Positions 1 to 31,433 of a stretch of 64,000 nt of DNA are shown here, one piece after another. Position 1 is the stretch's first letter; the number at the start of each line of letters is the position of its first letter. The notes below the pieces were generated by a model. That model was not told the origin of the DNA, ran no database searches, and saw nothing but the letters and a program-made list of their open reading frames with translations. The stretch is from Elusimicrobia bacterium RIFCSPLOWO2_02_FULL_39_32. Its GTDB lineage: Bacteria > Elusimicrobiota > Elusimicrobia > 2-02-FULL-39-32. A program made the position numbers and the translations under genes. Location of the stretch: positions 310,001-374,000 of the forward strand of contig MGUU01000016.1 of NCBI GenBank assembly GCA_001800135.1. Direction: 5' to 3'.

Positions 1-3000
1 CAAATAGGTCTAAAGTTCTTAATGAACTTTGCCAAGGGCCAATCTGGCAAAACCCTTCTTCTTAAGATAAGATTAGAATCCATAATGCCGCTTTTATGAA
101 AAGGTAAAGGTTTTCCTTTATAACTTTTATTTGCAGCGCTTTCTTGCATCATGGCGCTGTACATTTTAACCCCATCGCTTAACAATTCTGAGCCCTGTCT
201 TCTAAAATCATGTTTATTATTTATGAGTGAAAGAATATGAGACTCAATCTGCTGCAAAGTAATGCGTCTGCCATCTTTTGCCGCTTGAATGCTCAATGCC
301 TCATTGGTGTCTCCTATAATCAGGCTGGATAAACCATTTAAACCGTTTTGAGCTCTGGTTCTAGGATTCTTGACTATGGAACCATTTTTTTCTTCAATTC
401 GTAGATTCATCAGATTTACAAAACTAAAAATCGCTTGATCTTCAGGAGTTAAAAACTCATTGGTTCTAACTTTATTCTTTTTAGCTCTTTCAATTCTTAT
501 CCCTTTTTTCACAATTTCAGTCCAACTATCTAGCCAACCCTGTTTAGCTAAAAGATTTGAGATAGAATAAACTAAGTGGAAATCTTTATAAATCGTAGTT
601 TTAATCGCTCCAAGCAACTTATCTAAATCAAGTTCTTCCTCTCCCGGTTGGAGCTCATGGCCAACTAATTTTCTACTTAAATCGAATTTTCCTCTGGTCG
701 TGCCATTATTTTCTACCATTCCGTATAATAAAGGAAAGTCCACCAATCCTTCTCCATCCCAAAAAAGAGCATCGTAAGTCTTAGACAAATGGCGGTGAAG
801 ATCTACCCAGAGAACAGACAAACTCCAAGGTCCATTGCGGTTTGGATTAGAAAAATAGTGTATTTCATTAATTTCAAGCCCTTGCAAAAGTCTGGCTCTG
901 GCATCCAGCCCATTTCTTCTGCGGATCGTTTCATTTAAAACTGTTGTGCGCAATAAGGGATCCGCCTCAATCTCGTACCTTCTATTAATAATTTCAATGT
1001 AAGATTCATTCACCGCAACCTTTACTGTGCGCTTGCTCATGTCTAATTGATCTTCGTACTCTTTAAATACTTCATTGATGCGGCGGTCTAATTCTTGGTT
1101 GGAAACTTTAGAATTTTCATGTAAAAGTCCATCTTTCTCCATTCTCTGAAACACGCGATTGACAAAAGATTCTACAGTTCCTTCTGCTTCTATCGGGTAA
1201 TCTTTCCAACGTTTGATTACAGTTTGTAAAGCCATTTCCCAAACACGAGCTAATTGCGTGGGAGTGACTTTGTACTTATTGTGCTGCAAAAATCTAGTTC
1301 TTTGCACAATTTCGTTCCATGCGATTTTTCTTCTTTCTATTGGATTCGTTAGGATAATGCCGGTTCTTTTAAAATATCGTTCATTCGCAAATTGTTCAAC
1401 TAAGGGAGGAGCAGGCAGTTTGGAACTAGAGTCTAGTAAATTAAAATGTTTTGGAATATCAGACCTAAATTTTTGCAAACCGCTTATCTTTTGCGCGCCT
1501 TGACCTGTGGTTCTTCTGCCAGAAATATGCGCGGCATGAGACAAATAGCCGGCAACATAACCTTGACCAAGCTGCCCCAAATTATTCTCTATTTGAAAAG
1601 AATATAATAAGGAATCAGTTAATTCTGATTCAGGAATTTCTGGAATCCATTTTAGTCCTGGGAGGAGCTCTAGTTTTCCTTTGGCCTTCATGTCCATATA
1701 AAATTGGTTATTCCCCTCCCGCATTTCTCTAAAAGTCTCAAAATGATCAATCAGCACATACCATTGATAGGCTAATTGAATTTGCGGGGTAGCGCTGTTA
1801 TAGGATGGAAAACGCCTTGCCGCAACTTTAATTAAAAGCTCTCTTTGTTGCTCATTTTTAACAGGACTTGCGGCAGGAGATGGCGCTGCAGGAATAGGCG
1901 ATGGAGTAGCTGTAACTGAAGGAGTAGCTATAACTGAAGGAGTGGCGCTAGCGGTAGTTGAAAGTCCGTTTTGAGCCATAACGCGCGCCAAGCGCGCGAT
2001 TCTAGTTGCATTCACCTGCACCCAAAGGTTAGCATAGAGATTTCTTTCAGAAGGATCTCCTTGGGCTATGGCTTGCAAATCCACACCCATCACTCTTAGC
2101 TGTTGAACTAAGTTCCGCATTTGGTCTGCTTTCCCGCCTTGGACAATTTCAGGATTTAAAATTTCCTGTAAAGCTGGTTCAACGATACTTAAGATAATTC
2201 TTTTTTCTTCTAAAGTAGCAGGCTCTATAAAGGCTGAACTAAAAATTTGATCCGCAACAAAATTTTGAGTTTGCAATCTTTCTAATTGTTCCTCATTCCT
2301 AAATTTATTTTCCTGATCCCAAAGATTAGCTTCCAAACCAACCTGAAATTCCTCAACTTTCCGCAGCCTAATTCTATTTTGATAAACCTGCGCAATAGCA
2401 TCGCCTTTAAATTCTGCGCTGTCCCAAAAACTATTGGCATAATCCAGCCCTAACATGCGAATCACATCTTGCACGCTCATATGATTTTTTAAAGCATAGC
2501 CGGTTAAACGATTGACATAGGCTCTTTCCTTATCTATGTCAATGGCATATAGAAAAGGGCTGGCAATAGTTGCTGCATGCTCCGCTGGTTCCATGGCGCC
2601 TTGCACTCTTACAGAAGGCACATACGGAATCTTTCTTAAAATAATTAAAGGTATTGCGCTCATGTCTCTGGCAGTTTTTAAAGCCCGGCTATTGGGATCT
2701 CGAAAACGACTTACAGGAAGTTTAGAAAGGTTTTGAGATAATTCCTGTTCTAAGTTGTTGCTGAATTCCAAAAAGGTTTGCACATTTTCCGCGCTTGGCT
2801 CTTCTCCCCACTCTTCCAAAGTTCCTTTTGTGCCAACAGCTAAGTTTTCAAATTGTTTTGTATCTAAAATATCCTGAGCTGCTTTTACCTTATTCCAATT
2901 TCTATTAATCTTATCCCAATATTCAATGCGCATGGTCTCTTCCTGAGTTTTGCCAGTTGTATCTCTAGCGTCTGAAAGCATTCTGATCCGCGCCATTTCC

Positions 3001-6000
3001 GGCAGTTCCACAAAACTTAAAATAAAAGGATATTCTCTATACTTCACCACATCCGGCACATGCCATAAGGTTTGAATGCGGCTTAAATATCCGCCAATAA
3101 ACTGAAACGCTCCCATAATGCTCTGATAAACAGTATTAAAGAAAGCGTTTTTCTGAGAGTCTCTGCCAGCTTCTCTCATCATTAAAGCGCGTTCTCTGTG
3201 ATTGGCTAAAATAGAAAGTTCCTCTGGATAAGACTCTGCCATGCGCATCACATTTTCCCGCTTTGGTTCTGTGCCTGTAAATTGCTGATTTAAAGGTAAT
3301 GGGTAGGTTACTGGAAATTCTTCCAAAGGTTCAAGCTGATCTAATTCAGTTAAAATTTTTGCAGGCAGACCTTTTAATTTTCCAATTTTTTCTCCTTTAG
3401 GTCCATCCCGAATTAAAAGAATTGGACTATGAAGCGCATCCACCATGGCGATAAGAGAAATCAAATCATCTCTATTCCTTGTATATAAATCTGCCCGAGT
3501 TAACATTCTTCTTTGCACCTGATCTAAATGGTATTTCTGTTCTTCTTCTAATACCCCGGCTCCGGTCACAGTTCTTTGGGCTTTGCCATATGCAACTAAA
3601 ATATTTTGAATAGCTTGCCGAAAACCATTTGGAGTAGGAGAAGGAGTTGTTATGGGAGTAGGAATAGGGGTAGGAAGAGCAAATACGGATTTAGCCAGCA
3701 CAGAACCAAACATGGTTAAAGCAAGAAGAGCGCTTGTGACTCTTATAATAGCAACTTGACGTCCGCCTCCGGGAGCAGCTCCTGGGATGTGAATGATACC
3801 ACCTCCACCGGCTCCAGTTCCACCACCTGTTCCGGGAGCGCCGCCTCCAGGGGCACCACCTGCTCCGCCAGCTCCTCCAGTGCCACCTCCACCCGCACCA
3901 CCGCCGGGCGCACCGCCGCCAGGAGTACCACCACCAGCTCCAGGGGCACCACCTGCTCCAGTTCCACCACCACCTGCTCCTCCCGCACCGCCTGCTCCAC
4001 CACCTGTGCCAGAAGATCGGGGTCTTCTAACAGTAGCATCCCAAATACTAAAAGCAATAAATCCCAATCCCACAATTAACAAAAATAAACTGATTACTGA
4101 AGAGTTAGAAGCTCTTTCTCCCCACATCTGGTAATGGTTAATTCCATACCAACCTGACCAAGTCAAATAAATGCCTAAACCAAATACAAACAGATGTTCC
4201 CAAATAGATGCTCTTACAGGAGAAGGAGCTCTTGTATCTACCGTAGAATTTGTAAGATTTTGAATGATCCATTGATTGCCGCCAATCAGATTAGCCAAAA
4301 AAGAAACTATCCCGATACCTAAAGAAATTGAAAACCATACGCTATTTGGGCTAAAGAAAGTAGCTAAAGGAAGCCAAGTTACAAAAGCAATAGCTCCTTG
4401 CCAAAAACCTGTCCATAAATTTGGCCGTTGCGCGCTTAAATAAACACCTAAAGCTGAGCCAATAATATGCGCTGCGAAAATAGGAAAAGCTCTTTTAATT
4501 AAATCCGCATTAGGAAAATGCAAACCTAAAATTAAGGGAATCGCAATGCCTAACAAAAAGATAAAGATAAAAAATGGGAATCCTCCTCTGCCCTGTTCAT
4601 CTTGGCCAAAACGGTGACCAGCATTTTGATAAAGAGAAACAGAATCATCATAAAACATATCCATTTTAATCTGCGGAATCCAAACAGCTGCTTTACCCGT
4701 AATATCTTCCACATAACTGATTAAAGTGATCCAAGGCAAAAGAATAATATCCATTAAATAGATATTGGCTAAAGCTAGTTCCATAATGCCAATCACAAAA
4801 TTTTTTCCAGCATCTACCGTATTCCGCCATACGATTCTAAAAGTTCCGGCAAAAATAGAGGTAACAAGAAGTGTGATAAATATGGCAGCAATGGTATAAG
4901 GAAGAGCTAAACTAAATAAATAACTTAAAGTAACTGTTGTCGCTAAAGCCACCATTCCAAAAATTCTTGCATAAAGAGGTATGGTGCGGCGAGGATTAGC
5001 AGGATCTCTGCTAGAAAAAAGAGTGAGAATTAAAGTGCCAAAAATCCCTTTTAAACCATTTTCTATAATGATCAAATAAAATTTAGAAATAATAATGTTA
5101 GAGAATATGCTAAAGACAAATATTCCTTCTGCAATCCAAGGAAGCTCCACTGGCAAAATCCCTAAAGCTGTGCCTAGAATTCGGATAAAAAGCCAAAAAC
5201 CAAAAGCCATGACTTGATAGTGAGAAAATAGAGCTTGTCCTGCGATCCATTTTTCTTGAATGCTGCCTCTGGTAAAGAAATCATAGGAAAGCCTAAAATC
5301 TCCTGAGCCCCAGCGTTTTTTCTGATATAAAGAAGAGATAAGACTGGGAGGAATATCTTCCATGATTTCAGCCATAGCATCAAAAAAAGGTTTAGCGCGT
5401 CTAGCTTCAAAAGTATCGTGGCTAAGATAATTAGGAATAGGCCTGCCTTCAACAATGACCCGCTTGGTATAAAGAGCTAAGAGATGCGCTTCTTTGCCAA
5501 AGTCCCCTGTTCTGCCAAAAGCAGTCTGAAAATCTTCCAAAGTCCAAATAAGGATTCTTCGCGCCTGAGCAGACATGTAATGGTACCAGCTTGCAATAGA
5601 ATGAATTCTTAGTTGAGGCATGACCATGGCAGATTCATTTAAACTAGGATAGAGTTTCCAATACCGTTCTTGCAAAACTGGATCTCTTTTAAAACGATCT
5701 AAAAACGCGCTCTTGGCAATAATTCTTCTTAATTCTCCTTCTCTGGAATAGTTTGCTCCATCATAAAGCACCACATGTTTAAATTTATTTTTGTTTGGAT
5801 TACTATAGGAATCATGGATCATTTGAACCCCAACCAATTCTCCAAAACGATCTCTTCCAATTAATCCTTCATTTTGCATGAGTTCTCGGATATCTTGATA
5901 CATTTGATAGGTGTGAGGCCGATCTTCTGTAAATTCATTTATTAAATCTCCATTTTGATCCAGATCATGCAACCCTATGTAAAGAGGTTCATCAGGATTA

Positions 6001-9000
6001 CGAGAAAATTTATTTTTTGGACCCCAGAGAGTTGGATTAGTAAAGGTTTTAGCTCGGGTTTCTCCCATAGCAACTAAATGCATGTCATGGTATGCGAAAA
6101 GTTTTTTACCAATGGTACTCCAGCGTTTAGCAAAAACAAAATTTCTTCTATAAGCATCAATCTGATCTTGGTTGAAACCTTTACCTGATAATATAGTGTC
6201 CAACTCACCCCCGGGCCCTGCATATCTTTGAAAAGCCTCAATTTCTAATTCAGTGACTCTTCTGCGTATATTTTTCGGGTTAACTGGATCATTCACAGGA
6301 TCAATGCCGCAGCTCATGTAAACAAAAGTAATATTCCCATTTGGATCATAATTATTTTTAAAGGATTCAAACCACCATCTTAGCTGCTCTTCAATGGTTG
6401 CCATGGTAACAGCTTCATCCAAATTTCCATTCTTATCTAAAAATGGTTCTACTCTAACCGTAGTAAGGGCTAAGGTTCTATCTGTATCGGAAATTCCATT
6501 ATTCTCAAAATCTTCCTCAATCTCTTCAGAAGGAATTTTAGGAGTTGGGCTGAGCGAGCGAACAATAAATCCTGTAATCAATCTGGCTGGGGTTAGATTA
6601 ACTAAAGGTAAAGGAATGGTTTGTAAAACCAAGAAAATCCAAGAAGAAAAATCACCTATGGGAATTTTAGTGGAAATGGTGTAAGTAATTAAAAAGGTTA
6701 AAGTTAAAGAGATCATGATCTGCAGGAAAATATAGAGTAAAGGAAGCACAGCATACCTCCATGTCCAATAGAGCTCGCGTAAAAACGTTCTTCTTGGCCC
6801 CGGAGGAGGCAAACCAGTGGCTGGATCTAGATAAGTAGTGTCATCTCTTAATTTAGCTACTAAAGGATCAGTATCATCAAAATAATCTGTTCTATTAGTG
6901 CCATGAGGATTTTCTACTCCATAAGATTCATCAGTTGTTTTTTGAAATTCAAGCGCTCTAAAACGAGCAAATTGAATATCTGCCAAAATTTTAACTGGAG
7001 TAAAAGTTAAGATGGTGCCAACCACTCCAATAATAAAAGCCCAGATCACTTTGGTGGATCCCTTAGTGGACAAATCTATGAGATCTATTCTAGCGCCTAA
7101 ATGTAAAAAGGATAAAACAGTATTGATCCCATAAACCATTGGATTCACAATCCAGGAAACAAAGAACTGCATAAACCCTGTAGAAATCGTCTGCATCAAA
7201 ATATTGTCAAAACCAAGAGGGATAAGCCAAATTCCAATGATCATGTAAAAAATCCCTACCATGGCTGTGACACTAAAGAAATAGTAAAGCGGGTGAAGTT
7301 TTTTTAATCGTTCAGAGGTTCGAATCGCCCTAAAAAAATAAAAGAAGCTGGCAAAGGAAGAAAAAATAAGCAAGACCAGCGCGATTGGGCTGGGTAAAAT
7401 CGGTAAAAAGAAAAGAGGGGTTCCTGTAAATGAATGCAAGTTCCATAAAGCGATTAAATACCATAGTGCTCCCGCAAGAAAGTGACCGCCTAAACTAAAA
7501 GGTAAAGCAGGACCTGAACCTTTTTTATGCTTAGCTTGTTCAATAGTTTGAATTGCCCAGTTGAACTTGTCTGTTTCAGGACTTACGCTAACCCTGCTTT
7601 CTTCAACTGCTTCATTTATGGCTTCATCATACCCTTGAGAGACAAGTCGTTCAGTGCTGCCTGGAATATGCGGCAGATGATTTTTTAATGCGCTTATAGA
7701 ACGTTCTGATTCTAAAAAAAGATCCCCTGAAAAATAAGCTAAAGCTTCTGCAATTTTCATACGATACATCTCTTTAAGATTTCTGGAGACTCTAGTTCTT
7801 TCTGCTTGTAAAGCTCTAGTTTCTTCTTCTAAAGCGCTAATTAAAACTTGAACCGATCTAGGATCCTTTAACCTTATTAAAACATCTATGGCGGAAATTT
7901 TAACTAATGAATCAGGATCTTGTAAGGCTTTGCTAGCCAATTCAAAAGTGTTTGGATCTTGATATTGAGCTGAAGCAGTTACTGCTCTAGAACGAATATA
8001 GCTGCGGCTGTCCCCTAAAAGTAACCCTAATTTATTTTTAACTAGAGTGTCTGTATTGGGGGTTCTAAAATAAGTTAAAGTTTCTAAAATAGGATCAAGT
8101 AAACTTGTATCTTTTGAAAGTTCAACTAAATCTCGCACTACTTTTTCACTTGTATCGGGTCTAACATTAGGATATCTTCTTAGGGCAACAAGCGCTTCTT
8201 CCCTCACAGTTCTTTCCACTCTAACACCAGCTGTTGCCACATTTAAAAACCCAAGAGCCATCAAGTCTGAATTCGCTCCTAATTTAACCAGTCTTTTTAC
8301 CGCGTTTCTTCTAACCTCTGGTTCATTGCTCTTTAAGAGTTCCCAATAAGATTCTATGATCTGCTTTCTTTCAACTCCTAATTCTTTTTCTAAAACTAGT
8401 CCCAGTTTTTTGTGCACATTAGTAAAACGATCATTTATCAATAATTTTATTAGAATCTTTTTACCTTCTTCTCTGATTGCTTCATCTGCTTTGCTCAACT
8501 CCACAACTTTATCTATCGCGCTCCCTCGCACAATTCTGGAAAGCCAATATTTACCGTAAAAAACTTTTTGAATCTCCCCAAGATCAGTTTCATTCCATAC
8601 ATTTCTGCTAATCCGAACATCTCTAACTATTTTCACACTAGAGCCAATAATAAGAGTAACCGCGGCTACGCCTAAAATGGCAATAAGGATGTAACCCCAA
8701 AATAAATTAGAAATAACTTGCATGTCTATGAGATCGGATAAAATTAGAGTGATCTGAGACCAGCTAAAAGTCTGACTATCTGCCATTGGGGTTTGTAAAT
8801 CAAAAGGTAAAAACCCGGCAGGAAACGCAAATGCCGCGCTAGCTGCAAATAGAGAAGTAAAAAATAGTCCTATGCCGATAGTCGCGGGTTTTGCTATCTT
8901 TAAGAAAACCAAAAGAGCAAAAAGAGGCTCATAGACAAATACTATAAGACGATGTAAGGTAGAATAAATAAAATGGTTGTTGAGGAAGGAGGCAGGGAGC

Positions 9001-15000: not shown

Positions 15001-18000
15001 TTCTTCCGAGCAAGATATACCCACAAACTTACTCCTCCTGTAAATACTCCCAATGCTGCTACCAATATACTGTTCCCTAATACAGGATCTACCATTAACG
15101 GCACAAACCCTTGCGTTAACAATGATGGCGGTATCAATATAAAAGCTAATGCAACTGACCCTAATATCCCTCCTAATCCTCCGCCTGTGATGATCCCGCT
15201 GGATTTTTGCTTCTCTGCCTTAAAACCATATACATTTTCTAACAGTTGAGATAATGCGGCAATATATAGTTTTAATTGATTAGGAGTGATTTCAATTTTC
15301 CCAAGATCTGGCAGCTCTTTTTCTCCATTAATAATTTTCCCTAAAGTTTTAAATTCATTGTGCATCCCTTCCTCTCTCACAGATTTTAAGACTCTTGCAT
15401 CCAAAGCGCTGTCTATGCCAACTTCTCTAGGATGGCCTCTACGCAACAAATTTAATAGACGATCTAAAGCTCTACGGCTGCCTGGAATTAAAAGACCATA
15501 TTGATTCTCTATTCTTAAAGAAACAGCATAAAAATATTCTTCTAATTCCTGCTCATTCACATTGCTACTTACAACATTGCGTTCTTGCATGCTAAAAATA
15601 GAAGACAAATATTTAAACCGCTCTGTCTCTGATCTTATGGATTCCAAAATTTGATTTCTGAATCCTGATTCTGGGAATAAAGCTAAGAAAGCAGGGTTCA
15701 TTTCATTTAAATCTTGAATAAATTTTTCTTTCCTATTTCTATTAACCTGAGCTTGAGATAAAACATCCTGAGAAGAATCAACTTTTAACTCTTCTAATAA
15801 ATCTATATTAAAACGCTGATTGATTCTGTTCAGTAACTCAGCCCGAGCATCTTCCTGATACTCCCTCTCCACACCAGGAATCTCTATCTCTCCTCTTCCC
15901 ATGCTCTTTAAATTCTCATACCGATCCCCGCCTAAACCAATAAGCTCCTGCATGATCCCTTCATTCAAACTCCCCATCCCAAACATCTCTCTATCTCCTG
16001 CCGCTAATCCCTCTCTCAATCCCTCTTCATTCCTATTCCATACCCTCCTCCCTTCATTTACTGGGGCTGGAGATGGAGATGGGGATGGAGATACTTCCCC
16101 CACACTACCAAACAAACTCCTTATTCTATCCGCAAATCTGCTAAATATACTCCCTGATTCTGATACTGCTGGAACTGCTCCTACTCCTTCTGAATCAGTT
16201 GCTTGGCTAAAACCATACAAGTTATTAAGAGACTCTGTTACTGAAACTGCTGGCGCCACTCCTCTAGAGTTCGAGGATGGGGATGGGGCTGCTGCTCCTT
16301 TATTTACATTTTCATCTGATTTATCTACTCTCCCCTGACTCCCTCCCACTATAACTAATTTTTTCTCTCCTGCTGCTTGATCCGCTTTCCCTTTATCTTC
16401 AATATTTAACACTACTCCTGCCCCGCTTCTTCCTAAAACTGTTGCTGCTGCTTTACCTGCTGCTCCATTAACCCCTGGAACTGTGGTCACTGCCCCGCCT
16501 GCAGCCGCTGCTGGAGTCCGCGTTAATGTCTGCGTTCCTCCCACTGCAGGCGCTGATGGACTTGCTGGTGAAGGCGCTGCTTGAGTGGCTGGAGTTCCAG
16601 CTACTGATCCACCTACATTCTGATCTGAATTTAAAGAACCTCCTCTTACTGTTTCTCTAACCTCCTCATCTCTTCCTTCCCTAATAAGAGCTGCCAACCA
16701 TGTGCTGAATGCAGCTAATATCGGACGTATCCTACCTTGAGAAATAGCCCTGGTCTCATAATCCACTATCCCAATTTCTTCCGGAACTCCTGCTTGATCA
16801 ATATCATCTACATCCTCATCCTCTTCTTCATCTATTGAAACAGTTCTTTCTCTTCTTAAAAAATTAAGAAGAATCACGCCGATAATGGGTAAAAATCCAA
16901 AGAAAATCCACATTCCTATATTACGCATTTGAGAAATTTTTAAATTCCAGGTTAATTCCTTTAAAGTAGGTTTTAATATTTTCTCTGCCCGCTGCTTAGA
17001 ACTTTTTAGATTTCTATCTAATTGAGACTCGGTCTCTGCTAATAAGGAAGAAAGTTCAGATCTTAAACTTTGATTTTCAATAGTTTGTAAATTAATTCTC
17101 TTTGCAAGCGCCTTTGAACTATTCACAATCATTTCCAATTCCTGAATTCTTAATCTAGTCTCATCTTGAATTAGCTGCATTCGGTCTTTAAAATCTTCAA
17201 CATCTATGGCCCACAACTCTTTGATTTGATTCATCTCATCTTCTAAAGCTGACACACGATTGTGCACAATTCGAGTAAGCGCTATTCCTCTTAAATAATC
17301 CGCTAAATCCGGAGCTATTTTTTGAATCTCAAGCTGGGCTTTGAACAGCTTGTCAGACTCTTTCTTTGTAGTTTCTACAGAGGAAAGAGTAGTCTCTAGC
17401 TCGTTTATATTAAGTTCCAATGAACGATTTTCTGCTGTTAAATGATTCAAAGCATTTTCAGTTTCTTTTTTCATTAAGGTTAAAGTTTCATCCCCTTCCG
17501 GGATCTTTGTAATTTCAGGAGGAAACTTATTTTTAATTTTTTGATCTGCATTATTCTTAACTTGCGCTGCGGTCGTTAAATTAGAACGAAGCTTCGCTAT
17601 CTCATTTTGCAATTCTATTTCAAGCTGCGCCAAATCTTTAATTTTATTTTTTAACGCTTTTATTTGCGGGAATTTTCCGGACTGAACAGAACTCCAAAGC
17701 CCTTGTAGAATTTTAACTTCTTCCTGATACTGTTTATTTTTTGATTTAACCTTATCAAAATTTTCTTTAGAACCTTCAGTTGCATTCTTAATCTGCATTC
17801 TTAAATTTTCAATTTCTATGACAATACGGGAAAGCCCAATGCGTGGATCATTGGTAATGGATAACACTTGTAAAAGCGGATAAGGATCAATGGCAGTAGA
17901 GTCGGACCGTCTTAACTCAAAATGAAGGTGCGGGGCTGTATTTTCTGGGTGAGGATGGAGATTGTGAGAAATTAAAAGACCAGTCTGAACTGGATCATTT

Positions 18001-21000
18001 TCCATAACCACTGGATTTGCTAAATGACGATAAACTGTTTGATAATGAGAATAGCTTGCGCCAAGATCAACTGTAACATGAATGCCGGAATTAGGCACGC
18101 TCACCACTTTAGTTACCTGTCCGCTCATCAGGGCAATGACCGGAGCATCTGAACCGGAAAAAATATCAATTCCTTCATGCAGACCATTGTGCGCTGCATC
18201 TGCAATACCCCAGCTCCCAGGATCAAAATCCGCGTTATAAGCAACCTGAATCTTAGTGATGGAAGCTACATTATAGCCCTGATTCATGCGAATGTTCGAA
18301 GGAGGCACATTAAAAGGAAAACGACCGCTGGCTATTAAACTCCTAATGACCAAAACATCTTCAACGTTATAAGAAAATCTGGAATTACGGATAAGATCAT
18401 CTAAGAGTTTTACTTTTTCTGCTTCTAAATCTTGCGCTGCTTTAACCATGGCGCTAATCACTTCGCTGCCAGATGCTTGAGGCAAAATCTGATCCAACGC
18501 ATTAAATGGCTGGCTTGGAGTATTCACAACTGTGGGAGCTGGAGCAGGTTCTTGAGTAGGAACTTGACTCTCAGGTTGTCTAGTAAGCGGTTGAAAACTA
18601 AAAAAACCAAAATTAGATATTGGCGGAGGAGTTTGCATGGCGCTTGCCGCAACAGATGGAGCTATAAAACGGCTGTTCTTTTTTTGGACTTGAGGCGGCT
18701 GAGAAAATATAGAAAAGAGTGTGGTAACTCCTATTAAAAATAAAATAATTCTTTTTGGATTTCCTAAAACGCTAAAAACAATGGGTGAGAAACCTATCAT
18801 GCCTCCAACAACTATTTGCTGAGATTGCATATGAGACTGCATTATTGTGCCAATAGATGGGCTCATAGAAGCTAAAACAGCCACAACAAAAAGCGCTGCC
18901 AGACTAGCAACAGCCACAATTTGTGAAAATATTTTTTGTTTTAAGGTGGGGAGCGCAACAACTTCTTTTTTAAGCGGCTGAGGAGAGGCTTTATTTAATT
19001 GTTTTGGACCTGCTCTTTCTGGAGGAACTTTTCTTTGAATATTAGAGTATGGCCAAACTTCTTTAGAATAAGGCTCTAATCTTTCGCTATCTTCTTTTTT
19101 TGCTTTCCTAAAACTAAGATGGCCCGCTCTCTCCATCCCGGTTTGCAGCCAAAAACTTAATCCGGAAAAAATGCGCACAACCCCTTCTTCGCCAAAGCTG
19201 CCGGGCTTAGATCTTAAAGTTCCCATGGCTTTTTCAATTGCGTTCTCAAATTCCACAGAAACTAAATGAGGCATGGGTTCAAAATCTGAACTTTCAACTA
19301 AAAAATTAACTCTGGAAAATTCTCCCTGATACGCGCCTAAAAGGATCTTAGTACCTTTATCTTCAACAGGACCTACAAAAAACAATTTGTTCTTAATAAT
19401 GTCCATTACTTTTTCCACTGCTTCTGCCAGCTCTTGATCCTCTGCATGAATATTGTTTTCTAACTCCCCTTTTAACTCTTCTAATTTTTTAGTGTAACTT
19501 TCTATTAAGGAAGCGTACTTTATTTTTTCTATTCCTTTGCCCTTATCGCTCTTATCTTTTTTCTCCTGCTTCTGGGCTCTTTCAAAAGAAAGTTTTGGAC
19601 GAATTACAATATAAGGCACCCCTTTATCTCTTAAAAGCTTCATCATGCCAGCAGTATGAAAACCACCTGCAATTAAAACCACTCTTTCCTCATTCAATTC
19701 TTTTACTTTTTCCAAGGTCTTCTCCACCATGGTTTGGTCTCTTTTAAAAGCAAGTCTGTAATAGCCTTCTTGTAAATATCTCATTTGGGCATAGGTGGGT
19801 GTTTGAGCTCGACTAATTTTAGAGGGCTGGTGAGTTTGGCTTACTTCAATCTTTAAATCTTTTTCTTTTTGACGAACAAAATTTTCAATCTCCTTCCAAC
19901 CTAAGACTTTACCGCTAAAATTTTTTAAATCCCCTTTTTTAACTGTTTGTCTGTAATCTTCCCAATCTGTAGGGGAAAGTTTCTCATCCCAAAACTTAGT
20001 TTCTATTCTTAAACCCCTGTCCACCTCCACTAATTTTTTTAGTTTTTCATCCTGACCGGCAAAACTTAAAAATACATTTTTCTCTAATTTTATAATCTCA
20101 TCGCTAAGTTTTTCTGTTTTAATTGCGCTATATTTTTTAAGATAATTCACATAGATTTTTATTTGGGGTAGATCCCGATTGTGGGCTTGGGCTAGGTTAA
20201 TAATCCCTTCATAAAAACGCTCTCCGCTGATCTTGCCCAGACGATAGCTTAAACTTACCTGTCCTAGCTGAGCTAGGCTGGATTTATCTAACTTATCTTC
20301 TAGAAAAATAAGTAATTTTTTTCTTTCTTCTTCTATTCCTTCTTTGGTAAATTGCGCTTCTAGTTTAACCATCTCCTCTAAGCTGGTTAAATTTGGATAA
20401 TCTTGATTCTTCCAGTTTTGAGGATCAGCTTTTAGTAAATAAGAGAAATATTCTTTTAAAGGAATTTTCTGACTGTCAAAATTTCTGCTGACATGATCTA
20501 ATTCTAAAAGTTTTCTGGGATAAATCTTTCGCTTAATCGCATCCAGCCTAAAACTTAATTTTTCCAACTCTTCTAACAAGTTTTTTCTATCCCTATCAAT
20601 CACCTCTCTGGCTTTGGCATTCGCTTCATAAAGCTCTTTTTCTTCCACGCCATAAATCTTTAGCTTGCCAGGCCCCATCATAATAGCCAGATATTCTTCA
20701 CCTGTAATCTCTCCCTCCTGGAGCAAACGTTCTGCCATTTCCTTTTTCAAATTTTCATCAGGGAATACGCTAATCCATTCAGGGCTCACCCTTCCCCACG
20801 CGCCTTCCACGCAGACTAAAAGCGGCTGAAGAGAAGCTGCTTCTTTGCTTTCAGGATTTCCAGAATGGATAATTTTTAATATTTCACTCGCATTTTTTTG
20901 CGCGTCATAAACTCCGTGAGCGTCTTGAATATGGATCACCAATGGGGGCTGTTCAGCCAAATTTGGGATTCCGCCCCAAGCTTCAACCACAGTTCCTAAA

Positions 21001-21263
21001 TCCTCTGGTATTTCAATGCCTGAAGCTATGCCTAACTCTTTAATTCTTTCTTTTTCTTCCGAACTTTTATCTGTTTTTTTAAGAGCCTCTGCCACCTTTT
21101 CCTTTTTCTCTGTCATTACATCCACTGCTTTTTTTCTTTCATCCCAGATAGAAGCTTCAGCATAGGGAGGAACAACAATAGAAAATAAAAGAGCCCCCAG
21201 CACACAGATCGCTGTGCTCTCTAACCAATTTCTATTTTTCTTTTCTATCCAGAAACGAATCAT
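1..21263 (-). CDS. Giant exported mosaic protein with TraB/ChaN-like, M23 peptidase, repeat and GT2 glycosyltransferase domains (3' partial)
   Basis: No in-frame stop was found from the ATG at 21263 to the window edge, giving at least 7,087 codons. A GAGGGA ribosome site lies 6 nt upstream, and the start overlaps the stop of the preceding gene (TAATG). Order by residue: signal peptide 1-33 ending PPYAEA; TraB/ChaN-like domain with HIQDAH (about 115), VEG (about 152) and AGGFH (about 533); two membrane segments near 770-850; M23 peptidase with H1029xxxD1033 and H1112-L-H1114; coiled coil 1130-1435; membrane segment about 1460; Pro/Ser/Ala linkers; IPGV helical repeats 1730-2700; AAKT repeats 2840-3750; HEAT-like repeats 4250-4520; membrane segments; GT2 domain with SHDxxEA and QKKRW (about 5280-5325), resembling OpgH/NdvB glucan synthases; membrane segments to 5720; Gly-rich linker 5748-5828; an unassigned helical tail. 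Cell-envelope work (wall cleavage, glucan synthesis) is inferred. The product may be processed. Confidence 0.93.
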   Translation of the reverse strand, partial: MIRFWIEKKNRNWLESTAICVLGALLFSIVVPPYAEASIWDERKKAVDVMTEKKEKVAEALKKTDKSSEEKERIKELGIASGIEIPEDLGTVVEAWGGIPNLAEQPPLVIHIQDAHGVYDAQKNASEILKIIHSGNPESKEAASLQPLLVCVEGAWGRVSPEWISVFPDENLKKEMAERLLQEGEITGEEYLAIMMGPGKLKIYGVEEKELYEANAKAREVIDRDRKNLLEELEKLSFRLDAIKRKIYPRKLLELDHVSRNFDSQKIPLKEYFSYLLKADPQNWKNQDYPNLTSLEEMVKLEAQFTKEGIEEERKKLLIFLEDKLDKSSLAQLGQVSLSYRLGKISGERFYEGIINLAQAHNRDLPQIKIYVNYLKKYSAIKTEKLSDEIIKLEKNVFLSFAGQDEKLKKLVEVDRGLRIETKFWDEKLSPTDWEDYRQTVKKGDLKNFSGKVLGWKEIENFVRQKEKDLKIEVSQTHQPSKISRAQTPTYAQMRYLQEGYYRLAFKRDQTMVEKTLEKVKELNEERVVLIAGGFHTAGMMKLLRDKGVPYIVIRPKLSFERAQKQEKKDKSDKGKGIEKIKYASLIESYTKKLEELKGELENNIHAEDQELAEAVEKVMDIIKNKLFFVGPVEDKGTKILLGAYQGEFSRVNFLVESSDFEPMPHLVSVEFENAIEKAMGTLRSKPGSFGEEGVVRIFSGLSFWLQTGMERAGHLSFRKAKKEDSERLEPYSKEVWPYSNIQRKVPPERAGPKQLNKASPQPLKKEVVALPTLKQKIFSQIVAVASLAALFVVAVLASMSPSIGTIMQSHMQSQQIVVGGMIGFSPIVFSVLGNPKRIILFLIGVTTLFSIFSQPPQVQKKNSRFIAPSVAASAMQTPPPISNFGFFSFQPLTRQPESQVPTQEPAPAPTVVNTPSQPFNALDQILPQASGSEVISAMVKAAQDLEAEKVKLLDDLIRNSRFSYNVEDVLVIRSLIASGRFPFNVPPSNIRMNQGYNVASITKIQVAYNADFDPGSWGIADAAHNGLHEGIDIFSGSDAPVIALMSGQVTKVVSVPNSGIHVTVDLGASYSHYQTVYRHLANPVVMENDPVQTGLLISHNLHPHPENTAPHLHFELRRSDSTAIDPYPLLQVLSITNDPRIGLSRIVIEIENLRMQIKNATEGSKENFDKVKSKNKQYQEEVKILQGLWSSVQSGKFPQIKALKNKIKDLAQLEIELQNEIAKLRSNLTTAAQVKNNADQKIKNKFPPEITKIPEGDETLTLMKKETENALNHLTAENRSLELNINELETTLSSVETTKKESDKLFKAQLEIQKIAPDLADYLRGIALTRIVHNRVSALEDEMNQIKELWAIDVEDFKDRMQLIQDETRLRIQELEMIVNSSKALAKRINLQTIENQSLRSELSSLLAETESQLDRNLKSSKQRAEKILKPTLKELTWNLKISQMRNIGMWIFFGFLPIIGVILLNFLRRERTVSIDEEEDEDVDDIDQAGVPEEIGIVDYETRAISQGRIRPILAAFSTWLAALIREGRDEEVRETVRGGSLNSDQNVGGSVAGTPATQAAPSPASPSAPAVGGTQTLTRTPAAAAGGAVTTVPGVNGAAGKAAATVLGRSGAGVVLNIEDKGKADQAAGEKKLVIVGGSQGRVDKSDENVNKGAAAPSPSSNSRGVAPAVSVTESLNNLYGFSQATDSEGVGAVPAVSESGSIFSRFADRIRSLFGSVGEVSPSPSPSPAPVNEGRRVWNRNEEGLREGLAAGDREMFGMGSLNEGIMQELIGLGGDRYENLKSMGRGEIEIPGVEREYQEDARAELLNRINQRFNIDLLEELKVDSSQDVLSQAQVNRNRKEKFIQDLNEMNPAFLALFPESGFRNQILESIRSETERFKYLSSIFSMQERNVVSSNVNEQELEEYFYAVSLRIENQYGLLIPGSRRALDRLLNLLRRGHPREVGIDSALDARVLKSVREEGMHNEFKTLGKIINGEKELPDLGKIEITPNQLKLYIAALSQLLENVYGFKAEKQKSSGIITGGGLGGILGSVALAFILIPPSLLTQGFVPLMVDPVLGNSILVAALGVFTGGVSLWVYLARKKKTKGGAGTATTASGSSAATPAPTATPQAAPVAAPTTPAPAASGASPAVPAATPAPSASGGTPTAPPTPTPTPTPTPTPTATPAPSASAGVPVTPAVSGTGSIFTRFADRVKNLFGGGKATPVAAVSTPRVVGWEKSEEGLRRALEAGDKEIFGMGSLNEGIMQELIGLGGDRYENLKRMGRGEIEIPGVESEYQGEAREELLSKIRGRFGIDLLKEPEVVKAEDMVMKGNKGEWERNEKGLRGALAAEDEVIFGFEPLVNELIMTTIINSGVDRLQSLEEIIRGDRDIVGLDIKYMKAVRNDLGRVVHKNFNYEIREIEYFIREMKGGRNVLRVGSPVDEGVMELLRKGRDGEEKRILSRVMSGRMKIPGVREEEQVEARNEVRKVLRENYGFKGIDTGGGFGIFGTTLGMMLIPISRIVGGSLGDSAIGNAIFLASLGIAAGGIGIAFILRKKEAMLLEERETIKNIADLIKELRNGNAKALGIGTPVDEGVMNLIQNSKEGKEKNILEKIIFGKIRIPGVSQDRQQEARDYLARRLEADFNFKVDLKHEQLMEDREKIGVEKLEEELLRKNWSVFGLDDKIGQAIYEEISKSGYMLLNLENILSGKISLPGVEIERQAEALKDLSRKLKLDFGFEIGSFEKYKKPFFVTLEQKRIGDPSGIIKPVRVTRPDRMFGMGIIKPAAAQFTHGQRSPIIEFPDVRERMGYIAREVNQTSFSSLFLIILGRFLSILERPFREVEGIDLGFRAPQGLPARGLKGSTSKLSSLGTGVLQPAVIERAIPRAANTTILRIANPEKEIPQAVKTSVLSLGGTVKLTQIEEARKIAQAFGTGKLSASGTRILTFQRAAVEVVRAAKTTILNLVGTSRLLQMEEVRETPKASVAGKVGSSKRGKGKRALKPAIPARRILRAAGTTVLTPAAAESRIPEAAKTSILASLIPEKEIPQAAKTSVLKPVVEREVAAAAKTGVLVQSEVVASIPVGTSKLPNIEEAKETPRAALTGKLDSSKTGILPVLLQKRAEYVARETTQTIFRIPFLMILGSLFSILESSFKIFIKDKVIGLEFKTPQGLPARGLKGSTSRLSSLGTGALKPAIAERAIPRAAKTSVLSPAVVEREVAAAAKTGVLVQSEVVASIPVGTAKLPQIEEAIETPKASGTGKLGSSRTGALKPAILERVIPRAAKTGILTQSEEVASLPVGTAKLPQIEEAQAAPRVSLTGKLVQSLTRVLVSPFVEREMVRAAKTAILSLVGTGRLSQVEEVRDIPSAAKTTILTPAAAESRIPEAAKTSILASLIPEKEIPQAAKTSVLKPVVEREVAAAAKTGVLVQSEVVASIPVGTSKLPNIEEAKETPRAALTGKLDSSKTGILPVLLQKRAEYVARETTQTIFRIPFLMILGSLFSILESSFKIFIKDKVIGLEFKTPQGLPARGLKGSTSRLSSLGTGALKPAIAERAIPRAAKTSVLSPAVVEREVVRAAQTGVLTQPETVAAIPVGTAELPKIEEAQATPRVSLTGKLVQSITRILVSPFVEREMVRAAKTAILKIASLETEMPQPAKTSILKPVVEREVVHAAKTGVLSLLGTSKLDLMQTEKVRAGPTRRLEAVPDQKVAAQGTIPLERFRGARPNISDRTSHLAFDKTGRLSPSRVEPVRQFPRGTVNLSQNRQNTGRLDLRAVEKTKSASPTALLIPVQEPQTNLLGRMAQTGLKLIMRLMNIQEEEKPQPLEIGWNFRDEGIRQELEVLRAEGGKHFEEALRQIAKERGIEARAKVSTKGSPMARNILPQPNKPTRPGTINKITIKDKAATIGSSVIKVGVVLLLVGTLTLLPDFYSVAWSAPLTPLTPILAVDPTLQFAYSLFSVLGVAAILFIIGLGAIRLNTLRAGAPATKVTILTVMKKGKAVDPENIEAQVRFDATNNRYDIEVRSWIAELVGGIAPNETLKTLHDKADRVIADSTSIVQDADTRGEVDPIHEGKIKDAGVLKQILDRERFRISVDQLLRTSRLPASFLNNHFIYSTLHRLIVFVYEPLFALLVFLKIAKPATIGIGLFFTSLFAASAAFAFPAGFLPFDLQTPMADSQTFSWSQITLILSDLIDMQVISNLFWGYILIAILGVAAVTLIIGSSVKIVRDVRISRNVWNETDLGEIQKVFYGKYWLSRIVRGSAIDKVVELSKADEAIREEGKKILIKLLINDRFTNVHKKLGLVLEKELGVERKQIIESYWELLKSNEPEVRRNAVKRLVKLGANSDLMALGFLNVATAGVRVERTVREEALVALRRYPNVRPDTSEKVVRDLVELSKDTSLLDPILETLTYFRTPNTDTLVKNKLGLLLGDSRSYIRSRAVTASAQYQDPNTFELASKALQDPDSLVKISAIDVLIRLKDPRSVQVLISALEEETRALQAERTRVSRNLKEMYRMKIAEALAYFSGDLFLESERSISALKNHLPHIPGSTERLVSQGYDEAINEAVEESRVSVSPETDKFNWAIQTIEQAKHKKGSGPALPFSLGGHFLAGALWYLIALWNLHSFTGTPLFFLPILPSPIALVLLIFSSFASFFYFFRAIRTSERLKKLHPLYYFFSVTAMVGIFYMIIGIWLIPLGFDNILMQTISTGFMQFFVSWIVNPMVYGINTVLSFLHLGARIDLIDLSTKGSTKVIWAFIIGVVGTILTFTPVKILADIQFARFRALEFQKTTDESYGVENPHGTNRTDYFDDTDPLVAKLRDDTTYLDPATGLPPPGPRRTFLRELYWTWRYAVLPLLYIFLQIMISLTLTFLITYTISTKIPIGDFSSWIFLVLQTIPLPLVNLTPARLITGFIVRSLSPTPKIPSEEIEEDFENNGISDTDRTLALTTVRVEPFLDKNGNLDEAVTMATIEEQLRWWFESFKNNYDPNGNITFVYMSCGIDPVNDPVNPKNIRRRVTELEIEAFQRYAGPGGELDTILSGKGFNQDQIDAYRRNFVFAKRWSTIGKKLFAYHDMHLVAMGETRAKTFTNPTLWGPKNKFSRNPDEPLYIGLHDLDQNGDLINEFTEDRPHTYQMYQDIRELMQNEGLIGRDRFGELVGVQMIHDSYSNPNKNKFKHVVLYDGANYSREGELRRIIAKSAFLDRFKRDPVLQERYWKLYPSLNESAMVMPQLRIHSIASWYHYMSAQARRILIWTLEDFQTAFGRTGDFGKEAHLLALYTKRVIVEGRPIPNYLSHDTFEARRAKPFFDAMAEIMEDIPPSLISSLYQKKRWGSGDFRLSYDFFTRGSIQEKWIAGQALFSHYQVMAFGFWLFIRILGTALGILPVELPWIAEGIFVFSIFSNIIISKFYLIIIENGLKGIFGTLILTLFSSRDPANPRRTIPLYARIFGMVALATTVTLSYLFSLALPYTIAAIFITLLVTSIFAGTFRIVWRNTVDAGKNFVIGIMELALANIYLMDIILLPWITLISYVEDITGKAAVWIPQIKMDMFYDDSVSLYQNAGHRFGQDEQGRGGFPFFIFIFLLGIAIPLILGLHFPNADLIKRAFPIFAAHIIGSALGVYLSAQRPNLWTGFWQGAIAFVTWLPLATFFSPNSVWFSISLGIGIVSFLANLIGGNQWIIQNLTNSTVDTRAPSPVRASIWEHLFVFGLGIYLTWSGWYGINHYQMWGERASNSSVISLFLLIVGLGFIAFSIWDATVRRPRSSGTGGGAGGAGGAGGGGTGAGGAPGAGGGTPGGGAPGGGAGGGGTGGAGGAGGAPGGGAPGTGGGTGAGGGGIIHIPGAAPGGGRQVAIIRVTSALLALTMFGSVLAKSVFALPTPIPTPITTPSPTPNGFRQAIQNILVAYGKAQRTVTGAGVLEEEQKYHLDQVQRRMLTRADLYTRNRDDLISLIAMVDALHSPILLIRDGPKGEKIGKLKGLPAKILTELDQLEPLEEFPVTYPLPLNQQFTGTEPKRENVMRMAESYPEELSILANHRERALMMREAGRDSQKNAFFNTVYQSIMGAFQFIGGYLSRIQTLWHVPDVVKYREYPFILSFVELPEMARIRMLSDARDTTGKTQEETMRIEYWDKINRNWNKVKAAQDILDTKQFENLAVGTKGTLEEWGEEPSAENVQTFLEFSNNLEQELSQNLSKLPVSRFRDPNSRALKTARDMSAIPLIILRKIPYVPSVRVQGAMEPAEHAATIASPFLYAIDIDKERAYVNRLTGYALKNHMSVQDVIRMLGLDYANSFWDSAEFKGDAIAQVYQNRIRLRKVEEFQVGLEANLWDQENKFRNEEQLERLQTQNFVADQIFSSAFIEPATLEEKRIILSIVEPALQEILNPEIVQGGKADQMRNLVQQLRVMGVDLQAIAQGDPSERNLYANLWVQVNATRIARLARVMAQNGLSTTASATPSVIATPSVTATPSPIPAAPSPAASPVKNEQQRELLIKVAARRFPSYNSATPQIQLAYQWYVLIDHFETFREMREGNNQFYMDMKAKGKLELLPGLKWIPEIPESELTDSLLYSFQIENNLGQLGQGYVAGYLSHAAHISGRRTTGQGAQKISGLQKFRSDIPKHFNLLDSSSKLPAPPLVEQFANERYFKRTGIILTNPIERRKIAWNEIVQRTRFLQHNKYKVTPTQLARVWEMALQTVIKRWKDYPIEAEGTVESFVNRVFQRMEKDGLLHENSKVSNQELDRRINEVFKEYEDQLDMSKRTVKVAVNESYIEIINRRYEIEADPLLRTTVLNETIRRRNGLDARARLLQGLEINEIHYFSNPNRNGPWSLSVLWVDLHRHLSKTYDALFWDGEGLVDFPLLYGMVENNGTTRGKFDLSRKLVGHELQPGEEELDLDKLLGAIKTTIYKDFHLVYSISNLLAKQGWLDSWTEIVKKGIRIERAKKNKVRTNEFLTPEDQAIFSFVNLMNLRIEEKNGSIVKNPRTRAQNGLNGLSSLIIGDTNEALSIQAAKDGRRITLQQIESHILSLINNKHDFRRQGSELLSDGVKMYSAMMQESAANKSYKGKPLPFHKSGIMDSNLILRRRVLPDWPLAKFIKNFRPI
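3778..4020 (-). repeat. Gly-rich low-complexity linker in the giant protein
   Basis: In the reading frame of the giant gene this stretch encodes about 80 residues that are almost only Gly, with Ala, Pro and Thr (GAGGAGG-, GTGG- and APGG-type runs). It follows the membrane segments after the glycosyltransferase and precedes another hydrophobic segment and a Pro/Thr linker. The antisense strand reads as Pro/Ala-rich or Ser/Thr-rich open frames. These are by-products of the biased composition, not genes. A flexible spacer is the likely role. Confidence 0.75.
10603..11188. repeat. Exact 586-bp internal direct repeat, copy A
   Basis: Read base by base, 10603-11188 is identical to 11668-12253. The shift of 1,065 bp is exactly 355 codons, so the frame of the giant gene is kept. 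Identity stops sharply at both ends, against partly similar AAKT-repeat DNA. Perfect identity, including third codon positions, indicates a very recent unequal exchange or gene conversion, or an assembly artefact. Confidence 0.9.
11668..12253. repeat. Exact 586-bp internal direct repeat, copy B
   Basis: This is the second copy of the block at 10603-11188, in the same orientation and reading frame. It encodes several AAKT-type repeat units plus a short hydrophobic stretch that occurs a third time, diverged, near 12790-12870. That third copy shows the unit has been duplicated more than once. Confidence 0.9.
13080..16070 (-). repeat. Helical repeats of about 60-100 residues with an IPGV core
   Basis: The giant-gene frame repeats a unit with an acidic start such as G(S/T)(P/L)(V/N)EG(V/I)M, then a helix, then G(K/R)-x-x-IPGV, then a charged helix of the R-(Q)-x-x-A-R-x-x-L type. 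At least five units can be read, near 13150, 13470, 13900, 14450 and 15880. Two copies (about 14415-14605 and 15852-16042, shift 1,437 bp or 479 codons) are roughly 90% identical in DNA. Two-helix hydrophobic hairpins (GGGxGxxG-type, near 13620-13820 and 15030-15210) lie between units. Confidence 0.7.
14700..14995 (-). repeat. Pro/Thr/Ala-rich linker with a (PT)n tract
   Basis: In the giant-gene frame this codes for Pro-, Thr-, Ala- and Ser-rich sequence with a run of alternating Pro-Thr at about 14764-14807, built from a hexanucleotide tandem repeat (GGAGTT on the plus strand). Such tracts are typical extracellular linkers. The tandem DNA repeat makes its length likely to vary by slippage in 6-bp (2-codon) steps, which keeps the frame. 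Confidence 0.75.
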
Positions 21264-22015
21264 TATTTTCCCTCTATTAAAAAGAAAATCACCCCAAGGA
21301 TATTCTTTGGAGTGACTTTCAGTTCAACCTGGCTCAGCGCGTTTATGATAATGCTAGCAGGATCTTCCTCAGAGAAATTAAACTGATGAGTATTGATCCC
21401 CTTAAAATTTTCAACTGGCAATTGTGACTGACTTTGCTTAAATTGGACTAAAACCATTATTGCTTTAAGCTCAAATCTAAACTTTTTATTAACCCAGCTG
21501 GCAAGAGAACTTTTCCATGGGAAAAAACGCAGCTTATGAAAACCATTGGCCTGTAAAAAATTTTTCCAGACCCAAGTTTTTAAATCATAAATCTCAAGAT
21601 TAAAATTATAAAAATTAGAGGTTTTAATATGTTTTGCGGCATGAGATCCAAACTCTTGAACCTCTTTGCCCTGAGGTCTTAAAGAATCTTTGGATTTTTT
21701 TAAATTCTTTTTTAAAGCTTCCTGTACCCACATCTGCAGCAAGTTGCCTTCTGACAACATCCGCTCAATGGCGCCTTTGCTTGCCACCTCAATCACTTTG
21801 CTAGAGCTAAAGAAAAGTTTCTGCCAATGATTAGCTTTTAAACATTTTTTCCAAATTCCGGGATTTAGGATATAGGCCATCTTTGAAATTGCTACAGGGG
21901 CGAAATTGGTTTGCTGAATGGAACCTGAGACCACCACAATTTGCGTGAATCCGTTATTTAATCCGCTAAAATGAAAAAAAGAAACCAGCGTTAACAAACG
22001 TAACATCTTATTCAT
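21263..22015 (-). CDS. Small protein of unknown function, translationally coupled to the giant gene
   Basis: About 250 residues; I do not recognise the family. The N-terminus (MNKMLRLLTLVSFFHFSG) looks like a signal peptide or membrane anchor, and the remainder is rich in Lys, Phe and Trp. The TAA stop overlaps the ATG of the 21-kb gene (TAATG), so the two are probably co-transcribed and translationally coupled. The open frame extends to 22129, but that upstream start lies inside the promoter (-35 at 22124-22129, -10 at 22097-22102). I chose ATG 22015, which has AAGGGA about 9 nt upstream. ATG 22024, or a leaderless ATG at 22090 just after the -10, are alternatives. It does not end in Gln-Gln, unlike the giants. 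Confidence 0.6.
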   Translation of the reverse strand: MNKMLRLLTLVSFFHFSGLNNGFTQIVVVSGSIQQTNFAPVAISKMAYILNPGIWKKCLKANHWQKLFFSSSKVIEVASKGAIERMLSEGNLLQMWVQEALKKNLKKSKDSLRPQGKEVQEFGSHAAKHIKTSNFYNFNLEIYDLKTWVWKNFLQANGFHKLRFFPWKSSLASWVNKKFRFELKAIMVLVQFKQSQSQLPVENFKGINTHQFNFSEEDPASIIINALSQVELKVTPKNILGVIFFLIEGK

Positions 22016-22096
22016 TAACGCCATTCCCTTTTTCTGTTTTTTTAACCCACGATTCATAATATTTATCATACCCTTTGATTCTATTTTCATAATTGG

Positions 22097-22152
22097 AATA
22101 TACCAGAAAATGAAAAAACTATTCTTCAATTTTTTGTAACATTTTTGTAACT
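22097..22152 (-). promoter_or_regulatory. Giant-gene type promoter with tandem TGTTACA boxes (unit 21263/22015)
   Basis: On the minus strand two boxes, GTTACAA and TGTTACA, sit at 22146-22152 and 22135-22141, exactly 11 bp apart. They are followed by AAAAAA, TTGAAG (22124-22129), a 21-bp spacer and TATATT (22097-22102). The same order occurs upstream of three other giant-type genes. The long spacer fits an activator-dependent promoter; the activator is unknown. Confidence 0.6.
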
Positions 22153-30267: not shown

Positions 30268-30881
30268 GAAAATCTGCCGTAGAATTATTAAAATTACTGC
30301 ATTCACACCAGCTTCGTATCTTCACAACCCTAGATATCTTGACCTTGACTGGAATGAATCGTCCAGCAGCAACTCAGGCTCTCTGCCGTTTGAAAAAACA
30401 ACAGCTCTTAAGTAGGGTTAAACGGGGAGTTTGGGTCAATAAGTTAATTGAGAATCATAATCCTTTTGAAATCGTTCCTTTCCTTAGGAGCCCATGGCCA
30501 TCTTATGTTTCGCTTCATAGCGCGCTTGCGGATCATGGATTAATAGAAGAAATCCCTCATGTTATCTATGCAGTTACATCGGCTAGCCCTAAAAATTATC
30601 AAACAGATATGGGAGAGTTTCATATTCATCATCTTCCAAAGCATCTTATGTGGGGTTATGAAATTAAACAGATGGGGCAGGGATCTTTTCCTATGGCAGA
30701 CCCTGAGAAAGCGTTTTTAGATATGGTCTATCTGGCTTTGGTTCCTCGCTCGCCTATTGAGTTAGTTCAGAAGAGAGGAAGAAAGTGGCGCTTAAATCTG
30801 CAAAAGTTAAGTGAATATGCGCGGAAGTTTAATTTTCCACCTTTAATCACCTACCTGACTAAAAACAATTTATTTAGATGA
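30264..30881 (+). CDS. AbiEi-type winged-helix antitoxin/regulator
   Basis: 205 residues. The N-terminal 60 residues form a winged-helix pattern (FTTLDILTLTGMNRPAATQALCRLKKQQLL) followed by a wing (RVKRGVWV). The C-terminal part has the YVSLHSALADHGLIEE and FPMADPEKAFLDM segments typical of AbiEi-like proteins, which act as antitoxins and autorepressors. It overlaps the toxin by 4 bp and ends tail to tail with the lipoprotein gene, sharing the last 12 bp (30870-30881). Confidence 0.8.
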   Translation: MRKSAVELLKLLHSHQLRIFTTLDILTLTGMNRPAATQALCRLKKQQLLSRVKRGVWVNKLIENHNPFEIVPFLRSPWPSYVSLHSALADHGLIEEIPHVIYAVTSASPKNYQTDMGEFHIHHLPKHLMWGYEIKQMGQGSFPMADPEKAFLDMVYLALVPRSPIELVQKRGRKWRLNLQKLSEYARKFNFPPLITYLTKNNLFR

Positions 30882-31418: not shown

Positions 31419-31433
31419 AAATTTTCTCCTATA

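Follow-up and report, generated by a model that had tools for sequence, protein, structure and literature searches.

A giant open reading frame in an Elusimicrobia genome belongs to a family with a shared N-terminal module and may encode an exported, membrane-embedded multi-enzyme

Results

Genes and features at the locus

The window analyzed here is a 64,000-nucleotide stretch from an Elusimicrobia genome of 2.52 Mb (27 contigs, 97% complete). Its left part is occupied by a minus-strand frame that the first-pass annotation had described as open for at least 7,087 codons. This frame is stop-free from the window edge to position 21263, and leftward extension, which had been proposed as a check, reached a stop 13.2 kb outside the window. 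The full frame is longer, with 11,471 stop-free codons over 34.4 kb (C16:296848-331263, covering the window and the neighboring stretch), which places it in the class of giant ORFs (single frames of more than 20 kb). The start codon is ATG, with a purine-rich stretch ahead of it. The preceding 288-aa ORF was ruled out as a general partner of giants, since the genome has only one paralogue, adjoining a 3512-aa giant.

The M23 peptidase and the glycosyltransferase-like region of the earlier domain list are both present in the frame (Table 1). That list had overlooked HEAT repeats, a glutamate dehydrogenase (GDH) domain beyond the window, and an N-terminal module shared with other giants. A simple hydropathy cut-off, rather than a topology prediction, gives about 38 TM-like segments. 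A sugar-processing domain was also considered around residues 8560-9720; it was rejected, as the alpha/alpha toroid was seen by eye only and has no Pfam match. Scanning of the window revealed no Rfam families or tRNAs.

Table 1. Coordinates of features in the window.
Feature	Position	Strand	Details
Giant ORF, window part	1..21263	-	ORF end 13,152 bases left of window (C16:296848)
Signal-like N-terminus	21150..21263	-	residues 1-38, followed by a W-x-ER(R/K) motif common to giants
Shared N-terminal module	19569..20981	-	residues 95-565; TIKI/ChaN-like positions D114, H116, E153, H536
M23 peptidase domain	17883..18182	-	residues 1028-1127; H1029, D1033, H1080, H1112, H1114
KTxxL repeat array	10224..12686	-	residues ~2860-3680; place of both frame breaks in G001
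HEAT repeats	7815..8366	-	residues ~4300-4483; Pfam
Divergent NdvB/GT84-like membrane glycosyltransferase region	4584..6506	-	residues 4920-5560; DGA at 5168-5170 replaces DxD
SHDTFEA	5403..5423	-	residues 5281-5287
QKKRW	5310..5324	-	residues 5314-5318
Preceding 288-aa ORF	21263..22129	-	1-base stop/start overlap with the giant
Neighboring giant, 2298 aa	22351..29247	-	same N-terminal module; UDPGP-like stretch
Neighboring giant, 3245 aa	36859..46596	-	shared signal segment; patatin domain
Neighboring ORF, 1312 aa	49067..53005	-	signal-like start; no Pfam match
Neighboring giant, 6540 aa	53358..64000, continuing right of window	-	same N-terminal module; PP2C and cNMP-binding domains

Further giants surround this frame. 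At C16:251802-283991, outside the window, lies a giant of 10,729 aa that carries PPDK/PEP-synthase domains together with a PGM-like stretch. The UDPGP and PGM matches in neighboring giants, all on the same strand, are only partial. Several smaller genes are found among the giants. An AbiEii toxin and an AbiEi-like antitoxin are encoded on the plus strand at window positions 29494-30881, between minus-strand giants, and occupy the same place in a sister-species genome (G001). Two LPP20-like lipoprotein ORFs and a CsgG/TPR ORF lie within the giant cluster at 30870-33598; these are possible outer-membrane partners of the giants. An AAA_14/DUF4143 ATPase ORF is located at 47825-49000, and G001 adds three related ORFs near by (385, 395, and 413 aa).

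The giant frame is under purifying selection

Codons of the source genome and G001 were aligned over residues 1-2868 and 3591-11471; the repeat array that separates these parts is not reliably alignable and was omitted. dN/dS was 0.26 for the first part and 0.16 for the second. When calculated per 400-codon bin, it ranged from 0.05 to 0.43. The lowest of the 27 values belongs to bin 5201-5600, where SHD and QKKRW are located; the bin covering residues 1-400, where the N-terminal module begins, has a dN/dS of 0.07. Since dN/dS is below 0.44 in every bin compared with the sister species, we conclude that the frame is translated. Position-specific GC is alike throughout the frame, terminator-like sites within it occur at shuffle level (18 vs. 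17.2), and promoter-like sites are fewer than in shuffles (27 vs. 40.8).

These data bear on the idea that the frame has no function and reads through genes that were fused or have decayed, remaining open by chance. The long stretches with few recognizable domains, and the degenerate GDH copies in neighboring giants, would fit such an origin. However, purifying selection acts on 27/27 bins, and we consider read-through highly improbable.

An M23 domain and a glycosyltransferase-like region share one frame in the source genome

The Pfam M23 model (PF01551) matches the giant with an E-value of 3.8e-13 and 49.9 bits (curated cut-off 28.7), and the nearest PDB entries are an M23 family peptidase and lysostaphin. 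The four metal-binding positions listed in the first-pass annotation (H1029, D1033, H1112, and H1114) are confirmed, with H1080 as an additional position. We take HxxxD and HxH to be the M23 metal ligands and H1080 to be the catalytic His. The metal ligands and catalytic His of lysostaphin and LytM are all found in the giant; unlike in these peptidases, the domain sits inside a chain of 11,471 residues, from residue 1028 on. The domain is wall-peptidase-like, and peptidoglycan cleavage is predicted. The glycosyltransferase motifs had been placed over 4,000 residues downstream of the peptidase, and SHDTFEA indeed starts 4,167 residues after H1114.

Between the two domains lies an array of KTxxL repeats, with 34 copies in residues 2781-3790, whereas 500 shuffles averaged 0.3. 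Among nine other ORFs of more than 1,000 aa in the region, seven have no copy and two have one each. The array in the source genome includes a pair of copies that are 96% identical over 731 bases and spaced 1,065 bases apart, a multiple of three. Because of this near-identical pair, the assembly is least certain here. A single frame is kept through the entire array.

The locus is colinear in G001 (C10:60905-95883) but is divided into three ORFs in three frames (2894, 798, and 8034 aa), with M23 in the first and the glycosyltransferase-like region and GDH in the third. Both breaks fall inside the array. A frameshift separating the two domains, which the first-pass annotation had named as evidence that would refute its proposal, is therefore present in a relative and absent from the source genome, and it lies in the least reliable part of the assembly. 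In a further genome, G004, the homologue of the glycosyltransferase-like region is not accompanied by M23 on its 7.4-kb contig. While the proposed fusion of peptidase and glycosyltransferase stands as one frame under purifying selection in the source genome, these comparisons do not support it as a general feature, and it appears not to be stable across the genus.

It is conceivable that the two regions are normally carried on separate proteins, as the three G001 ORFs suggest, and that the continuous frame reflects a local or assembly-dependent condition of the array, the part in which the two assemblies diverge most. We consider this unlikely. The source genome is in frame throughout the array, including the copy spacing divisible by three; moreover, the third G001 ORF has no signal-like start although it holds most of the TM spans, and array units are recognizable across both G001 breaks. 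The last two observations are consistent with the breaks in G001 being recent or due to assembly error.

The glycosyltransferase-like region is a probable divergent relative of NdvB

The first-pass annotation assigned a GT2 domain on the basis of SHDxxEA and QKKRW motifs. Both motifs are present, but the GT2 label is too strong: no Pfam glycosyltransferase model matches the giant even at an E-value of 10, and the position of the DxD motif reads DGA. In BLASTP searches, the region weakly matched three NdvB-like ORFs of the class (E-values 7e-5 to 5e-4), labelled NdvB-like by their GH94 and glycoamylase domains (two of the ORFs, L033 and L034, were scanned for these domains; L035 was left out of the scan). 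Comparison of alignments with hhalign gave a probability of 83.6 and an E-value of 8e-6 against the three ORFs, limited to 80 columns around SHD and RW. The G004 homologue is 32% identical over 1,123 aligned columns, and the nearest named relative, a groundwater Elusimicrobia bacterium (JACPBF010000009.1), is 95% identical over a 781-aa query from the region. A PDB profile search with the region returned nothing convincing, and its structure model is poor (mean pLDDT of 43 and 39 for models of the N-terminal module and the glycosyltransferase-like region, respectively).

We take SHD to be the catalytic Asp block, QKKRW to be the (Q/R)xxRW motif of GT2/NdvB type, and DxD to be the sugar-nucleotide site. 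The Asp block (SHD, 5281-5283) and (Q/R)xxRW (5314-5318) are retained in the giant. In contrast, DxD is replaced by DGA in the giant and by DGG in G004, compared with DAD, DTD, and DSD in the three NdvB-like ORFs. The region resembles NdvB-type cyclic glucan synthases (GT84 with glycoamylase and GH94) in its SHD...E and RW..GD blocks and in the TM spans that follow. It differs from them in having DGA for DxD and in not keeping the WERKRGKLEELN block; in addition, glycoamylase and GH94 Pfam domains, found in L033 and L034, have no match in the giant. By sequence, the region is probably related to NdvB-type glucan synthases, though divergent from them. Glucan synthesis is doubtful because the DxD site reads DGA, and with the same position altered in the G004 homologue our data do not support the active glucan synthase proposed earlier.

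Two other features of these proteins should be mentioned. A low-complexity Gly-rich linker lies behind the glycosyltransferase-like membrane region (residues ~5750-5830, window ~3774-4016). In G004, residues 42-117 of the homologous frame (L032, contig C104) resemble the glycogen-binding AMPK1_CBM family, just under the cut-off (E-value 6.7e-6), ahead of the glycosyltransferase-like homologue.

A common N-terminal module defines a family of giants

Six giants of the contig region have a common signal segment followed by a module of ~500 residues. A profile built from ten module copies was used to search the genome, and the 39 matches were grouped into frames. The module was found in 21 frames of 2,033 to 13,472 codons, with 11 of the 21 having at least 5,000; lengths are stop-to-stop, and contig ends may shorten some. 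Together these frames total 124,991 codons, or 14.9% of the genome. The longest of them, with 13,472 codons, is located at C16:113632-154047. Six further frames carry the signal segment alone. More widely, the module matches 20 of 196 genomes of the class and 68 of 340 of the phylum.

Copies of at least 350 residues numbered 45, of which 43 remained after dropping near-identical ones. Of these 43 distinct copies, 41 have the module start no more than 50 codons into the frame, and in all of them it starts within 116 codons; two copies match without the first ~150 profile positions yet start at 47 or 48. Thirty-six of the 43 were aligned. H116, Q122, N124, E153, G205, and R508 are invariant in the 36 aligned copies, H536 is kept in 35, and D114 in 34.

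The module has no family in Pfam or NCBIfam, and a PDB profile search with it gave nothing convincing; one match, between the helical part and a splicing factor (E-value 0.0008), was taken as chance. The best lead is ChaN (PF04187), which reached an E-value of 0.0042 at best in 3 of 36 members, below the Pfam cut-off, with other chance-level families scoring equal or better in single members. We searched 98 genomes of the class for ChaN, with a match also found in 1 of 14 control genomes. Full ChaN matches are ordinary ORFs of ~290-360 aa in other genomes. Weak matches below the cut-off are numerous inside frames of module-bearing genomes, mostly to the C-terminal half of ChaN, and all ten that were compared by coordinates overlap the module. 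Alignment of the module to twelve ChaN proteins with hhalign was weak (probability 3%, E-value 0.014, compared with 0.8 and 0.3 for unrelated controls) and paired a G-G-F-H stretch of the module with A-G-N-G-H of ChaN.

The TIKI site has been described as two His and two Glu (PMC6254334, in the portions consulted). In the module, D114-x-H116, E153, and a late H536 follow one another at places matching TIKI, with Asp as the first acid. The module is similar to the TIKI/ChaN/erythromycin-esterase superfamily in the order and spacing of the acid-x-His, the Glu, and the late Gly-rich His motif, and in its weak but recurrent ChaN matches. It is dissimilar in its first acid, its long helical insert, and its sub-cut-off score. 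The structure model of the module is of too low quality to show a parallel beta-sheet core such as the superfamily has. We refer to the module as TIKI-like, do not call it a member of the superfamily, and regard hydrolase activity as putative.

A complete GDH domain lies in the C-terminal part of the giant

The GDH domain is complete (residues ~10560-11021, outside the window). It is matched by both PF02812 and PF00208 (E-values 4e-49 and 3e-32), and its nearest PDB entry is the solved bacterial GDH 1b3b (E-value 8e-65). Alignment to 1b3b shows that the glycine-rich, catalytic Lys, and catalytic Asp motifs are kept (residues 10592-10968). A chance fusion in one assembly was ruled out, as G001 also has GDH and a single G004 frame joins the N-terminal module to GDH.

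The distribution of this domain is relevant to the possibility that the giants serve metabolic or envelope housekeeping in their own cell, gathering GDH, PPDK, UDPGP-like, and PGM-like enzymes on a scaffold in the membrane and acting on no other cell. Within the genome, a complete GDH match was obtained only in the giant, and GDH occurs in 4 of 9 family genomes, with the best match in each lying in a frame of 11491, 8039, 2635, or 1376 codons, the shortest of which spans its whole contig. PPDK is found in the 10,729-aa neighbor, with a partial match elsewhere, and UDPGP- and PGM-like stretches beside the NdvB-like region would be in keeping with a UDP-glucose route. On the other hand, these UDPGP and PGM matches are partial and the giants carry signal-like N-termini. 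Furthermore, the GDH pieces in two other giants (3512 and 6135 aa) look decayed from their sequence, and no GDH match was found in 5 of the 9 family genomes (73-95% complete). We therefore regard housekeeping as a rather unlikely role.

Discussion

Our preferred reading, which relies on sequence and to which we assign a probability of about 0.55, is that the giant is an exported, membrane-embedded multi-enzyme of a lineage-specific Elusimicrobia family. An envelope or surface location had been suggested before, and we consider it likely because wall-peptidase-like and membrane glycosyltransferase-like domains are combined, in a constrained frame, with a signal-like N-terminus and ~38 TM-like segments. 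The frame, the selection on it, its domains, and its place in the family are established here, whereas export, the topology described below, all enzyme activities, and contact with other cells are inferred. Support for the earlier suggestion covers the location and does not extend to an active glucan synthase.

Family members begin with the signal segment and the TIKI/ChaN-like, hydrolase-looking module; the membrane spans, repeats, and enzyme domains that follow differ from one member to the next. For the N-terminal part of the giant, a position beyond the inner membrane is expected; there, its TIKI-like and M23 domains would cut envelope protein or cross-links, belonging either to its own cell or to one in contact with it. 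The NdvB-derived region is strongly conserved and may be a modified synthase, a channel, or a scaffold; an ordinary glucan synthase is less likely because the sugar-nucleotide site is altered. Catalytic residues are retained in the GDH domain, which would depend on a compartment that supplies NAD(P). Such an enzyme is difficult to place in an exported protein.

Giant genes as a kind are already known. In the parts of the literature consulted, Omnitrophota giant ORFs such as the 39,678-aa protein of Velamenicoccus archaeovorus are described, with a role as coat or in predation proposed (PMC10066038); giant genes of up to 85,800 aa are reported from Omnitrophota, Elusimicrobia, and others (PMC12057145, citing West-Roberts et al. 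2023), and Elusimicrobiota are noted as rich in proteins of more than 5,000 aa (PMC11573180). As far as these sources describe them, the Omnitrophota ORFs share with the Elusimicrobia giant the very long single frame, many TM spans, few annotated domains, and a proposed surface or predation role; they come from another lineage. The giant genes of West-Roberts et al. 2023 (via PMC12057145) include Elusimicrobia, the same group, and wall degradation has been proposed for them. The portions consulted of PMC10066038, PMC12057145, PMC11573180, and PMC6254334 make no mention of a shared N-terminal module or of GDH within the chain (preprints are outside this scope). The shared TIKI-like head looks new, and the built-in GDH unusual.

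By analogy with these published proposals (PMC10066038, PMC12057145), the giant could be a surface weapon used in predation or host contact, with M23 opening the wall of another cell. The nearest PDB relatives of its M23 domain are consistent with this role. However, the M23 bin, with a dN/dS of 0.26, is not among the most constrained, and M23 is also present in four small ORFs of the genome. Predation by the giant is plausible, and we put it forward tentatively. Contact with other cells is also assumed in a self-processing delivery chain, in which, once exported, the TIKI-like head would cleave the chain itself or its targets, thereby placing enzymes such as GDH in or on another cell; we consider this improbable.

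The shared module has practical consequences. It offers a common handle for giant genes that otherwise have few recognizable domains, and so aids in finding and counting them. With its conserved catalytic-looking residues, it is also a single domain that can be expressed. If the module or the signal segment proves to work, the export and processing of giant proteins would become testable. Finally, the confinement of GDH to long frames in this family raises the question of where giant proteins act.
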